Assembly: GCA_029262035.1 (NCBI GenBank)
Contig: JAJDAE010000185.1
Coordinates: forward strand, 1-43,439
DNA from: Candidatus Zhuqueibacterota bacterium
Lineage (GTDB): Bacteria > Zhuqueibacterota > Zhuqueibacteria > Oceanimicrobiales > Oceanimicrobiaceae
Length of the DNA stretch: 43,439 nt
Direction: 5' to 3'
Below are positions 2,577-10,981 of this stretch, one piece after another (within the stretch, counting starts at the first letter, position 1; each line of letters begins with the position of its first letter). Position numbers and translations under genes: made by a program. The notes beneath the pieces were generated by a model. The model had not been told where the DNA came from, did not search any database, and worked only from the letters and a program-made list of their open reading frames with translations.

Positions 2577-2764
2577 TTTCAAATTCCTTTTTTTATGATC
2601 GAATAAATTACAAACAGTAGTACGTAATTATTTCGTTTGGGTTCAGAGTTGGGAGCAGTTTATTCAGTTTTGGTTTAAAAACCAAATAAAAATCTTTTAA
2701 TAAAGTTGATTTTATCAAGAGATTATTGCAGATTGAAAGCCAGAACCTTCTCGTTTCAACATTT

Positions 2765-2788
2765 GTTCTCGTGTTCTCGTGTTCTCGT
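2765..2788. repeat. Three perfect tandem copies of the 8-bp unit GTTCTCGT abutting the left RAYT hairpin
   Basis: Read directly: gttctcgt gttctcgt gttctcgt at 2765-2788. Confidence 0.85.
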
Positions 2789-2833
2789 TCCAACGTTTCA
2801 CGTTGGAACGCCTTACAGGACGCTCCAGCGTCC
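2787..2833. repeat. REP-like double hairpin, left of RAYT
   Basis: gttccaacgt-ttc-acgttggaac (2787-2809, 10-bp stem) and ggacgct-cc-agcgtcc (2818-2833, 7-bp stem). Confidence 0.9.
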
Positions 2834-2873
2834 AATATTAAAAACAAATTGCAACCCAAAAAGAAAGACCCAA

Positions 2874-3410
2874 ATGGCCAGAACCCGTTACAAAATCTAC
2901 CAAAAAGAAGCCCCACATTTTCTCACCTGCACAACGGTCAACTGGCTGCCATTATTCAGCCAGCCTGAGATAGTGGACATTTTATTCGCATCACTCAAAT
3001 TTCTGCAAGACAACAAGCGGCTTCTGATTTTTTCGTATATCATCATGGAAAATCATTTACATCTTATCGCTTCGTCAGATGATCTCAGTAAAGAAATCGG
3101 AATTTTTAAATCTTATACAGCACGCCAAATTATTGATTATTTAAAGGCAAAGAAGGCGGATTCTATTTTGAGGGATTTGAGTTTTTATAAACTTCGGCAC
3201 AAAACAGACAGGGATTACCAGGTTTGGCAGGAGGATAGCCACCCGCAAATGATACAAGGCGAGAAAATGATGCGGCAGAAAATTGAATATATTCATTTTA
3301 ATCCGGTTAAACGGAATTATGTTGAAAACCCGGAGCATTGGCTGTATTCAAGCGCCAGAAATTATGCGGGGTTAGAGGGCAGGTTGGAGATTTGCAAAGA
3401 TTGGTTTTAG
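2874..3410 (+). CDS. REP-associated tyrosine transposase (RAYT / TnpA_REP, Y1_Tnp superfamily)
   Basis: MARTRYKIYQKEAPHFLTCTTVNWLPLF..., HUH-type motif IMENHLHLIASS, downstream Tyr (FKSYTARQIIDYL), C-terminal YIHFNPVKRNYV. The start is trimmed from the ORF-track start at 2706 because family similarity begins at MARTRY. Confidence 0.9.
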   Translation: MARTRYKIYQKEAPHFLTCTTVNWLPLFSQPEIVDILFASLKFLQDNKRLLIFSYIIMENHLHLIASSDDLSKEIGIFKSYTARQIIDYLKAKKADSILRDLSFYKLRHKTDRDYQVWQEDSHPQMIQGEKMMRQKIEYIHFNPVKRNYVENPEHWLYSSARNYAGLEGRLEICKDWF

Positions 3411-6298: not shown

Positions 6299-6327
6299 TT
6301 GACAAAAGAAACAAATAGGTGTATATT
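6299..6327 (+). promoter_or_regulatory. Sigma-70-type promoter for the marR-like gene
   Basis: TTGACA (6299-6304), 17-nt spacer, TATATT (6322-6327). Confidence 0.75.
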
Positions 6328-6330
6328 CAC
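6316..6330. promoter_or_regulatory. Candidate MarR operator copy 1 (taggtgtatattcac), overlapping the -10
   Basis: 14/15 identical to 6801-6815; near-palindromic GTGTATATTCAC. Confidence 0.6.
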
Positions 6331-6334
6331 GTAA

Positions 6335-6781
6335 ATGGATTCTATGAAAGAAAAACTGGATCTGGCAAATTGCGGGGCTTGCGCTTGCATGAACTTGCGT
6401 AAAACATCCCGAGCCATTACACAATATTATGATCGGGCTTTGCAGCCGGTTGGACTACGGGCAACGCAGTTTACAATTTTAGTCGCTGTTGCCAAAGCTG
6501 AGTCCATTACCATTTCCAAATTAGCGGAATTTCTTGTTATGGATAGAACGACTCTAACGCGCAATATCAGACCCTTGGAGCGGGAGGGCTATCTCGAAAT
6601 AAGGACCGGCTCTGACCAGAGAAAACGTTATTTGTATTTATTGAAAAAAGGTGAAACTGTTTTAGAAAAAGCTTTACCCTTGTGGCAGGTAACGCAGCAA
6701 AATATCGTTAGAGGACTTGGCATAGATAATTTTCGAAAAATGCTAATCACTGTGAATGACACTATTAGCCTGACAAGATAA
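6335..6781 (+). CDS. MarR family transcriptional regulator (winged helix)
   Basis: CGACACMNLRKTSRAITQYYDRALQPVGLRATQFTILVAVA...MDRTTLTRNIRPLEREGYLEIR...SDQRKRYLYLLKKG. Confidence 0.9.
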   Translation: MDSMKEKLDLANCGACACMNLRKTSRAITQYYDRALQPVGLRATQFTILVAVAKAESITISKLAEFLVMDRTTLTRNIRPLEREGYLEIRTGSDQRKRYLYLLKKGETVLEKALPLWQVTQQNIVRGLGIDNFRKMLITVNDTISLTR

Positions 6782-6800
6782 AACTATTTTTTTACCCGGT

Positions 6801-6815
6801 TAGGTGTATATACAC
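6801..6815. promoter_or_regulatory. Candidate MarR operator copy 2 (taggtgtatatacac)
   Basis: Contains the perfect 12-bp palindrome GTGTATATACAC (6804-6815), directly upstream of the AAGGAGG RBS of the next gene. Confidence 0.6.
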
Positions 6816-6833
6816 TTTATTGAAAAGGAGGAA

Positions 6834-8159
6834 ATGATGACGGTAACCCAAAATAAAATTACTAATGGCACACAAGTAAGTGATACATCTGTCGCAGCGC
6901 TGGACTCTGCCTGGTTAAAACAACTTTGTTTGGAGGCAGGCGCTGATGATGTTGGGTTTGTTGAAATTGACAGGCCGGAAATTTCTGATCAACTTGATGA
7001 TATTTTAACTGCGATGCCTTCTACGAAAACCCTCATCAGTTTCGTTAAAAAGATAAACCGGGAAGCTATCCGAACGCCCTTTCGCTCTATTTCAAACACC
7101 GAGTTTCATTATATAGATCATGAAATAGCAGATATTGGTCATAAAATTGTGTCGAAGCTTGAAGCGATGAAGATCGCCGCCCTCAATCCGGCTATGGGTT
7201 TTCCGATGGAAATGGACAGGTTCCCGGGTAAAATATGGGTGGTGTCGCATAAGCCGGTGGCGGTTGCTGCCGGACTCGGGAAAATGGGGATTCACCGAAA
7301 TGTCATTCATCCAAAGTTTGGGAACTTCATTCTTCTGGGTACAGTCTTGATAGCAGAGGAAGTTAAATCGCACAGCAAACCTATTGATTACAATCCTTGT
7401 CTTGAATGTAAATTGTGCGTTGCAGCCTGTCCCACCGGCGCGATTGGCTCGGATGGTTATTTTGATTTTTCTGCATGTTACACCCACAATTACAGGGAGT
7501 TTATGGGCGGCTTTACAGATTGGGTTGAAAATATTGCAGACAGTAAAAACGCAATTGACTACCGTTCTAAAGTAAACAGCCCGGAGACAGTGTCCATGTG
7601 GCAATCGCTTTCATATGGCGCCAATTACAAAGCAGCGTACTGCATGGCCGTTTGTCCGGCAGGTGAGGATGTTATCAGTCTTTATGAAGAGAATAAGAAG
7701 CAGTTTCTGGAAAACTATGTAGACCCTCTCCGGAATAAAAAAGAAACAGTTTATGTGGTTCCAAATTCGGATGCAGAAAGATATGTTGCCAAAAGATTCA
7801 AAAATAAAAAAATCAAACAGGTTGGCAATGGTTTACAGCCGCAATCCATTCGAGGTTTTTTAGATGGTCTGCCACTGGTTTTCCAAAGAGAGATCGCAGC
7901 GGGATTAGATGCAATCTACTTTTTTACTTTCCATGGTGTAGAGAATGTCTTGGCCACAGTTAAAATTAAAGAAAAAACCGTTGAAGTGCTTGATGGTCAC
8001 CAAGGTAAAGCTGATTTTAAGTTAACCGCCGATAGTCAAACCTGGTTGAAGTTTTTATCCAAAGAAACCAATATTGTGTGGAGTATTTTGCGTGGAAAGA
8101 TCAAAGTTAAAGGCCGGTTGAAATTGCTGCTCGAGTTTGCTAAATGTTTTCCTGTTTAA
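6834..8159 (+). CDS. 4Fe-4S epoxyqueuosine reductase (QueG)-like reductase with C-terminal SCP2 sterol-binding-like domain
   Basis: CLECKLCVAACPTGAI and YCMAVCPAGED Fe-S motifs; C-terminal GLDAIYFFTFHGVENVLATVKIKEKTVEVLDGHQGKADFKLTADSQTWLKFL...ILRGKIKVKG is SCP2-like. RBS aaggagg at 6825-6831; start at 6834 or 6837. Confidence 0.85.
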   Translation: MMTVTQNKITNGTQVSDTSVAALDSAWLKQLCLEAGADDVGFVEIDRPEISDQLDDILTAMPSTKTLISFVKKINREAIRTPFRSISNTEFHYIDHEIADIGHKIVSKLEAMKIAALNPAMGFPMEMDRFPGKIWVVSHKPVAVAAGLGKMGIHRNVIHPKFGNFILLGTVLIAEEVKSHSKPIDYNPCLECKLCVAACPTGAIGSDGYFDFSACYTHNYREFMGGFTDWVENIADSKNAIDYRSKVNSPETVSMWQSLSYGANYKAAYCMAVCPAGEDVISLYEENKKQFLENYVDPLRNKKETVYVVPNSDAERYVAKRFKNKKIKQVGNGLQPQSIRGFLDGLPLVFQREIAAGLDAIYFFTFHGVENVLATVKIKEKTVEVLDGHQGKADFKLTADSQTWLKFLSKETNIVWSILRGKIKVKGRLKLLLEFAKCFPV

Positions 8160-8251: not shown

Positions 8252-10981
8252 ATGATCGGTAAAACTGTTTTACACTATAAAATTCTCGAGCAGCTCGGCG
8301 AAGGCGGGATGGGCGTCGTTTACAAGGCTGAAGATACCAAGCTTAAGCGGTCGGTTGCCATTAAGTTTTTGTCGCCAAGTTCCACCCAAAATGCCGAAGC
8401 AAAGGAGCGATTCCTGCGTGAAGCCCAGGCGGCTTCCATGCTGGATCACAGTAATATTTGTACTATTCACGAAATAAATGAGACGGAGGACGGCCAGCTT
8501 TTCATTGTCATGGCCCACTACGGGTCGTCACTACAAGAGAAAATAGAAGGTGACGGTATTGAGCCGCCCACTCCCATGCCTGTAAATGAAGCCCTCGACC
8601 TGGCAATTCAAATTGCCCGGGGACTGGCGAAAGCCCACGCTAAAAATATTGTACATCGGGATATAAAGCCAGCAAACATTCTCATAACTGAAGACGAGCA
8701 GGCTAAAATTGCTGATTTTGGTCTGGCAAAACTGGGACGACGTTCTGTGCTCACACAGGAAGGCACTACTCTGGGCACCATTTCATACATGTCGCCTGAA
8801 CAAGCCCAGGGAGCAGAGGTTGATCACCGTACAGATATCTGGGCTTTGGGGGTGATTTTGTATGAGATGCTCACCTGCAAATCGCCCTTTCCCGGAGAAC
8901 ATGACCAGGTTATTCTTTATTCTATTCTAAGTGAAACACACAAACCTTTAACTGATCTACGCAGCGATATACCGCTAAAATTTGAACAGATTATCAATAA
9001 GTGTCTGAAGAAAGACGCAGGCGATCGTTACCAGGAAGTAAATGAATTGATAGTAGATTTGGGCAGATTGCGCGGCGACTCCAATCCTGCAGATTTAGCA
9101 GTTCAAATGCCGGGGAGGGTTAGGAAGAAACGTTCGTTAGTTTTACTTTTGTCCGGCATGATTCTCGGTTCGGCTATCTTGGGGGCATTTCTCCATTTCG
9201 GTTTGTTCAGGGAAACAGCCGGCGTGTATAGCGCATCGGTTGCTGTTTTACCATTTAAAAATCGGTCGGTGGATAAGTCGCAAGAATATTTTTCGGATGG
9301 ATTGACCGAGGAGCTGCTTAACAATCTGGCGAAGATAAAGTCCTTACGCGTGCCTGCCAGAACATCTTCTTTTGCTTTTAAGGATAAGGATGTAGACATA
9401 AAAACCATCGGCGAAAAATTGAATGTCGATTATGTGTTGGAGGGCAGCGTGCGGCGGTCCGATACAAAATTGCGGATTTCCGTGCAATTGGCTGCGGTGG
9501 ATAATGGCTTTCATATTTGGTCGGAAACTTATGATAAAAAAATAACCGATGTTTTTGACATCCAGGATGAAATTGCCGGAGCAATCGTATCGGTTTTGAG
9601 AGTGAAATTGCTGGGTGAGGAATCACAGCAAATCATTGCTCACGGCACGTCCAATTCACAAGCGTATGATGCGTACTTGCTGGGCAGGCATCATCTTCGA
9701 AATCGGGACAAGGAGAGTTTAGAGGCTTCAATAAACGCATTTGAAAAGGCCATACAACGGGATGCAACTTTCGCCCAAAGTTACAGCGGATTGGCGGATG
9801 CGACCTATCTTTTGAACGTTTATTATTATAGCCGATCGGATTCATTGCTGTTATCTAAAACTGAAAACATGATGCGGCAAGGTTTAGATATAAATCCCGA
9901 TTTGGCAGAAATACAGACGACTTATGCAAAATATCTTTCTAACCAAAAAAAGTTTTCGGAAGCAGAAATAGCATACCAAAAAGCAATTGAACTCAATCCG
10001 AATTATATCCAGGCCTATCATTGGTATGGAGGCTATTTATTCAGAGATCGCCTAAAGTTTAACGAAGCCCTGAAAATTCATGAAACAGCCATTCAGCTTG
10101 ATCCATTGTCCATTAGTTTGCTAAGCAATTTATCGCTTGACTTACAGGCGCTTGCGCGCTACGATGAAGCGCAAAAAACGAAAGAAAGAATTATAGAAGT
10201 TGATAAAGAGTCACGTTTCGGGTATGTGAATTTAATGGAGCATTATTTGAAAATAAACGGGGACGCCTTTAAAACAATAGAGATTGGTTTAGATTTGTCT
10301 GAAAGACTTTATGAAGAAGTTCCGGGTGCTTACGATCTTATGAAATCTGCCTATTTGGCGGTAGGTGATTTGGAGAAGGCCGAGAGCTATTGTCAGCAAT
10401 ATATCCGGGCAACCGGCGATAGTTCATCGATACTCGATCTGTACTGGTACGCAGATAAATATGATGATTTGCAAAGTTACCTTACTCGTTTAAAAAGCCG
10501 GGAAAGCACTTTTTCTAATAACAGAACGATTGCCTTTTATGAATGCCAGCTGGGTAACTACGCCATGGCCATCGAATACTACAAAAAAATCTACCCGGCT
10601 TTGTTTGAGGAGCCATTGGTTACGATTAGGAATTATTATTATGCTCCAGTGGTTGCTTATGCCTTTCTGAAACTGGGCGAAACTGAAAAGGCCACTGACT
10701 TAGCCAAAAAAGCACTGGCGTTTTATGGAGATCTGCCGAGATTTGGCTGGCCTTATGCTTATGATGAGAATGACATCATAGCCAATATTATTCTTGGTGA
10801 AAAGCAAAAAGCCATTCAGGCCTTAAAAGAAGATTTGGCGGGAGGCGGACGCCCCTGGTTGTGGTGGTTTGGTAAATTCCCTGTATTTGAGGAATTATTA
10901 AAAGACCCCGGTGTGATAAAATTCGTTAAACAGGCGGAAGCTGAACTGGTAAGGCAGCGCATAAAAACAGAAGCTCTATAA
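8252..10981 (+). CDS. Ser/Thr protein kinase with TolB/FlgO-like domain and TPR repeats
   Basis: LGEGGMGVVYKAED, VAIKFL, IVHRDIKPANILI, ADFGLAK, SPEQAQG, DIWALGVILYEML; then a TM helix, SVAVLPFKNRSVDKSQEYFSDGLTEELLNNLAK (TolB-like) and TPR units. Confidence 0.93.
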   Translation: MIGKTVLHYKILEQLGEGGMGVVYKAEDTKLKRSVAIKFLSPSSTQNAEAKERFLREAQAASMLDHSNICTIHEINETEDGQLFIVMAHYGSSLQEKIEGDGIEPPTPMPVNEALDLAIQIARGLAKAHAKNIVHRDIKPANILITEDEQAKIADFGLAKLGRRSVLTQEGTTLGTISYMSPEQAQGAEVDHRTDIWALGVILYEMLTCKSPFPGEHDQVILYSILSETHKPLTDLRSDIPLKFEQIINKCLKKDAGDRYQEVNELIVDLGRLRGDSNPADLAVQMPGRVRKKRSLVLLLSGMILGSAILGAFLHFGLFRETAGVYSASVAVLPFKNRSVDKSQEYFSDGLTEELLNNLAKIKSLRVPARTSSFAFKDKDVDIKTIGEKLNVDYVLEGSVRRSDTKLRISVQLAAVDNGFHIWSETYDKKITDVFDIQDEIAGAIVSVLRVKLLGEESQQIIAHGTSNSQAYDAYLLGRHHLRNRDKESLEASINAFEKAIQRDATFAQSYSGLADATYLLNVYYYSRSDSLLLSKTENMMRQGLDINPDLAEIQTTYAKYLSNQKKFSEAEIAYQKAIELNPNYIQAYHWYGGYLFRDRLKFNEALKIHETAIQLDPLSISLLSNLSLDLQALARYDEAQKTKERIIEVDKESRFGYVNLMEHYLKINGDAFKTIEIGLDLSERLYEEVPGAYDLMKSAYLAVGDLEKAESYCQQYIRATGDSSSILDLYWYADKYDDLQSYLTRLKSRESTFSNNRTIAFYECQLGNYAMAIEYYKKIYPALFEEPLVTIRNYYYAPVVAYAFLKLGETEKATDLAKKALAFYGDLPRFGWPYAYDENDIIANIILGEKQKAIQALKEDLAGGGRPWLWWFGKFPVFEELLKDPGVIKFVKQAEAELVRQRIKTEAL

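Follow-up and report, generated by a model that had tools for sequence, protein, structure and literature searches.

MarR proteins that repress their own gene and control a neighbouring one are well known. The closest characterised counterpart of the locus treated here is MosR (Rv1049)/rv1050 of M. tuberculosis, in which MosR represses an oxidoreductase and the formation of a disulphide between Cys10 and Cys12, both within helix 1 of a single chain, leads to release of the DNA (PMC5823404). AotM of M. bovis, an oxidative-stress regulator, likewise has a palindromic binding site and an oxidoreductase as its repressed target (PMC11351531), although its palindrome, TGTCAATGTTGACA, differs from the one described below. 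OhrR, MgrA and SarZ share with the regulator studied here the MarR fold and, as would be expected for it, autoregulation and cysteine-based sensing, but OhrR employs a Cys22-Cys127' pair (PMC5823404), whereas we find an intrachain CxC of the MosR type.

In the window, i.e., the whole stretch of 43,439 nucleotides that was analysed from a contig of a Candidatus Zhuqueibacterota bacterium, a marR gene lies between two closely similar palindromes, O1 and O2, and is followed by a gene for an iron-sulphur protein (Table 1). We consider it highly probable that O1 and O2 are operators of the MosR-type MarR protein encoded between them, and that this protein is a local autorepressor, probably released through its thiols. 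Control of a neighbour by a repressor is in itself ordinary; what is new is the operator common to several phyla, its recognition code and the recurrent module of marR and the Fe-S gene. The literature searched, which did not extend to the primary MosR paper, held no description of the cross-phylum operator, of its variants or of the recurrent Fe-S/SCP2 pairing, and searches for the motif together with MarR gave nothing relevant.

Table 1. Features of the marR locus, with positions in the window and the evidence for each.
Feature	Position	Strand	Evidence
-35 hexamer TTGACA, marR promoter	6299..6304	+	Scan; 11/12 promoter matches; orthologs repeatedly show a TTGACA-like -35 at 16-18 nt
-10 hexamer TATATT, within O1	6322..6327	+	Scan; in orthologs, too, the operator is repeatedly found over the -10
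Operator O1 (predicted), GTGTATATTCAC	6319..6330	.	One of two genome places of GTGTATATWCAC; conserved upstream of marR orthologs
marR, MosR-type MarR regulator, 148 aa; helix 1 opens with Cys16-Ala-Cys18; recognition helix at ~71-83	6335..6781	+	Pfam, PDB sequence and fold, AlphaFold
Operator O2 (predicted), GTGTATATACAC, perfect palindrome in the gap between marR and the next gene	6804..6815	.	Conserved downstream in 38/77 orthologs (up to two mismatches)
Shine-Dalgarno AAGGAGG of the Fe-S/SCP2 gene	6825..6831	+	Sequence
Fe-S/SCP2 protein, 440 aa from ATG 6837 (ATG 6834 possible); QueG/reductive-dehalogenase-like 4Fe-4S region and C-terminal SCP2	6837..8159	+	Pfam, NCBIfam, PDB profile

The MarR regulator and its cysteines

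The marR product scored 39 bits against the Pfam MarR family (cutoff 24.6) and was modelled by AlphaFold with a pLDDT of 92.6. MosR was its best match in the PDB by sequence (7e-23) as well as by profile (1.9e-38), and the top fold matches of the model were the MosR-DNA complex 4fx4 (TM 0.78/0.86) and 4fx0. The likeness rests on protein sequence and fold, with an identity of about 35% in the structural alignment, a CxC that opens helix 1 in both proteins and recognition helices that read ERTTLTRN in MosR and DRTTLTRN here. It would extend to the control of an oxidoreductase gene, the target of MosR being a short-chain dehydrogenase whereas the predicted target here is a 4Fe-4S/SCP2 protein. 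The MosR-type arrangement, with an operator in the regulator's own promoter and another at the adjacent target, is found at the sequence level only, with O1 at the -10 and O2 ahead of the following gene. None of the curated NCBIfam equivalogs was matched by the protein, and an identity as OhrR (38.2 bits, cutoff 200) or BilQ (47.4 bits, cutoff 125) was rejected.

The preliminary description had proposed that the clustered cysteines of the N-terminus (NCGACACM) might sense redox or metal. In a profile alignment Cys16-Ala-Cys18 falls on the CAC of MosR, which is the sole CxC in the aligned part of that chain (index 6 and 8 in the chain as against 10 and 12 in the published numbering, an offset). 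The proposal is supported for Cys16 and Cys18, which form the same CxC as the redox pair of MosR, but not for Cys13, which is not conserved. All of the 77 orthologs defined below have a cysteine in the region of the first Cys and 54 of them keep the CxC, so that not every ortholog need use the disulphide mechanism. By analogy with MosR, the protein would sense the redox state.

The same operators and the same MarR protein could also be combined with another trigger, namely a small-molecule ligand such as an electrophilic or aromatic compound in place of thiol oxidation, a possibility that we take seriously but hold as less than probable. Many MarR proteins respond to ligands, and the CxC pair is missing in 23 of the 77 orthologs. 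Among the neighbours of marR orthologs elsewhere are SDR and aldo/keto reductases, MFS transporters, glutathione peroxidase, VOC and DUF899 proteins, and the transporters and reductases, together with an exporter-length ORF and alpha/beta-hydrolase-like genes, suggest exposure to xenobiotics. Against a ligand speak the cysteine that every ortholog has in the region of the first Cys and the thiol control of MosR.

The neighbouring Fe-S/SCP2 gene

The product of the gene behind marR matches both Pfam SCP2 and Fer4 and is, by its sequence, a distant relative of QueG and the reductive dehalogenases. It has the 4Fe-4S ferredoxin-like region and the preceding stretch in common with them (NCBIfam, PDB profile), the PDB profile matches to QueG and PceA covering only residues ~66-218, but it is far under the cutoffs of both families and adds a C-terminal SCP2 domain. 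Membership in either family was rejected (TIGR00276 for QueG, 51.7 bits with a cutoff of 200; TIGR02486 for reductive dehalogenases, 39.2 bits with a cutoff of 160.35), and an AlphaFold model made from four sequences was discarded at a pLDDT of 35.

Within the phylum the gene is present in 4 of 82 genomes, all four of which have a marR ortholog; they belong to the same family, and the gene adjoins marR in each. One further genome (G064) has the marR ortholog without the Fe-S/SCP2 gene. Outside the phylum, homologs adjoin marR in Obscuribacterales (L031), in Opitutaceae (L035), in the phylum of Emcibacter (L062) and in that of Anaerolineales (L092), and they are also found at the marR loci L033, L106, L110, L111 and L115, with an ORF in between in L110, L111 and L115. 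The Fe-S/SCP2 gene recurs beside marR orthologs in at least four other phyla. Two homologs with about 63% identity, on plasmids of Nostoc and Priestia megaterium (L147 and L148), have no adjacent MosR-type regulator, a TetR gene being located upstream in Priestia. No good operator precedes the Fe-S/SCP2 gene on these two plasmids, as would be expected if the operator belongs to marR.

Through this pairing, a QueG-like/SCP2 iron-sulphur protein that is as yet uncharacterised and accompanies the regulator in several phyla becomes linked to what is probably a thiol-based stress switch, and a first testable handle on the role of this protein is gained.

Probable operators and promoter at the locus

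The starting point was an operator-like motif of 15 bp noted twice in the preliminary description, once on the -10 of a near-consensus marR promoter and once, with a perfect palindrome of 12 bp, ahead of the ribosome-binding site of the next gene. All of this was confirmed: TAGGTGTATATTCAC (6316-6330) and TAGGTGTATATACAC (6801-6815) are located exactly as given and are identical at 14 of 15 positions, the second containing the palindrome of O2. TTGACA-17 bp-TATATT (6299-6327, 11 of 12 positions), with its -10 inside O1, resembles a promoter more closely than any other sequence in the region. O2 is separated by 22 bp from the marR stop codon (6779-6781) in front of it and by 9 bp from the AAGGAGG behind it, and a recognisable -35 of its own was not found in the promoter scan. 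A transcript driven by the -10 at 6322-6327 would start at or beside the ATG at 6335, and marR may therefore be leaderless or begin at the ATG at 6344.

The computed support for control by MarR consists of the co-conservation of operator and regulator, the placement on the -10, the pairing of the genes and the covariation of helix and operator (the first and the last are described below). Binding, repression, the redox trigger and the mode of action at O2 are what we infer from it, the direction of control and the trigger by analogy with MosR. In its resting, probably reduced state, a MarR dimer on O1 would mask the -10 of the marR promoter and thereby repress marR. A dimer on O2 would repress the Fe-S/SCP2 gene and, as O2 has no clear -35, may do so at a weak internal promoter or by blocking transcription that reads through from marR. 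If Cys16/Cys18, where helix 1 begins, became oxidised or modified, the dimer would leave the DNA and both genes would be induced. That MarR at O2 serves as an activator of the Fe-S/SCP2 gene and not as its repressor seems improbable to us: the lack of a good -35, as at O2, is frequent in activated promoters, but a site so close to the Shine-Dalgarno sequence, on or downstream of any usable -10, has a position typical of repression, and MosR is described as a repressor (PMC5823404).

Frequency of the motif in the genome

Exact GTGTATATWCAC occurs at only two places in the 5,314,173 bases of the genome, both of them at the marR locus, and the abundance in unrelated DNA that had been named in advance as evidence against the motif was thus not seen. 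With up to one mismatch, GTGTATATACAC is found at seven places in the genome, including the two at the marR locus, and the probability that any two among seven random sites lie within 485 bp is about 0.004. At up to two mismatches the raw count within the window (6, with 3.8 expected) is not exceptional, so that the case is decided by conservation in orthologs and not by rarity alone.

A wider regulon was rejected, as the other five one-mismatch places lie in ORFs or before genes without an evident link. The sole two GTGYATATRCAC sites of genome G600 are situated before and behind marR, and the four of G089 are grouped in twos, with about 500 bp between the members of a pair; one pair (C43) flanks a marR ortholog. 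By this placement the regulon looks local and, judged from sequence, appears to be confined to marR and its neighbour.

Conservation of the operators in orthologs

A profile (A1) was built from 15 orthologs and searched against the phylum of the window and the phyla of an Emcibacter genome, an Anaerolineales genome and strain NaphS2. The resulting set comprises 77 orthologs with scores of at least 110 bits, for which 250 bp upstream and 150 bp downstream of marR were considered. Sites with up to two mismatches to GTGTATATACAC occur there at 3.06 per kb upstream and 3.69 per kb downstream, as compared to 0.026 per kb in the rest of the same loci. Upstream sites are present at 54 of the 77 loci and downstream sites at 38, with 61 loci having a site on either side and 31 on both. 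In a motif-free count of the marR-flanking regions, the commonest 10-bp palindromes were TGTATATACA, GGTATATACC and TGCATATGCA. Genomes G002, G003 and G004 of the same family each have GTG-N6-CAC palindromes on both sides of marR, the upstream one of G003 being degenerate (GTGTAACCACAC), and perfect GTGTATATACAC is found at the marR start on two haloarchaeal plasmids. The site is absent from MarR paralogs with low scores, and none was found near marR at up to two mismatches in the close orthologs L028, L030 and those of Francisellaceae.

Both sites are thus conserved at orthologous loci, in three genomes of the same family and in many distant ones, which lends support from comparative genomics to the autorepression and adjacent-gene control by the encoded MarR that had originally been suggested. 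The palindromes are very probably the repressor's own predicted binding sites, governing the repressor and the adjacent Fe-S gene, and the case for assigning them to the encoded MarR is strong. In many lineages the upstream operator usually lies over a -10 that is preceded, at a spacing of 16-18 nt, by a TTGACA-like -35. For 61% of the upstream sites the best -35 has at most two mismatches, as compared to 25% of random positions, an approximate contrast as the background was counted slightly differently. Part of the conservation of O1 could be attributable to its -10 hexamer.

Palindromes of this kind suit many dimeric regulators, and they might belong to another one while MarR binds elsewhere, but we regard this as very unlikely, since the sites follow marR across phyla while the neighbours change, are nearly missing from the rest of the loci and change along with the recognition helix of MarR. 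Hardly credible is a resemblance due mainly to convergent promoter sequence (a -10 of the TATATA type) and chance, for although O1 includes the -10 and the other one-mismatch matches in the genome look like chance or -10 sequence, G3 and C10 lie outside any -10 and are yet invariant in 57 upstream sites (preselected at up to two mismatches), and the downstream copies are enriched as much as the upstream ones.

In haloarchaeal and Pseudomonas aeruginosa plasmid records (L140, 2471-2482; L142, 2468-2479) the operator is located inside the annotated marR coding sequence, whose annotated start is therefore probably too early.

Covariation of recognition helix and operator

Residues 71, 72, 75 and 76 are located in the first turns of the recognition helix (71-83) predicted from the model. 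Operators of the GTG type go together with DRTTLTRN-like helices, those of the GGG type with DRSTLGRN and those of the ATG or TTG type with loss of Arg71, while four loci with DRTTLTAN or DRTTITAN, i.e., Ala in place of Arg76 (L082, L084, L089 and L141), have the upstream palindrome GTTGATATCAAC or one near to it. Arg71 agrees with G1 in 70 of 73 cases and Ser72 with Gly/Ala75 agrees with G2 in all 73, the sites of L082 and L139 having been judged spurious and removed by hand. With one row per 55% cluster the two associations gave Fisher p values of 4e-6 and 8e-8. On supported branches the phylogenetically independent pairs number only three and one, too few for a formal test, and where they differ all do so in the expected direction; the covariation of helix residues and operator bases, which was spotted in the same data that were used for counting, is therefore suggestive only.

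We hold a broader reading to be about as likely as not, namely that MosR-type regulators are one ancient or widely transferred family with the operator GTGYATATRCAC common to several bacterial phyla and haloarchaea. In its code Arg71 would read G1, Thr72/Thr75 as against Ser72/Gly75 would set T2 or G2, and loss of Arg76 would go with GTTGATATCAAC; with the QueG-like/SCP2 protein it would constitute a transferable redox-response module. An entire MarR subfamily could be given its predicted binding site in one step, the variants following from the residues of the recognition helix, so that targets could be read directly from sequence.

Surrounding genes

Downstream of the Fe-S/SCP2 gene the window encodes a large serine/threonine protein kinase with TPR repeats (8252-10981), which gives no sign of belonging to the regulon. 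An ORF at 2706-3410 looks by eye like a REP-associated tyrosine transposase; no Pfam match was obtained with its C-terminal 185 aa. In three Chloroflexota loci (L029, L032 and L091) the gene after the MosR-type regulator resembles, by eye only, an alpha/beta hydrolase, perhaps a haloalkane dehalogenase.
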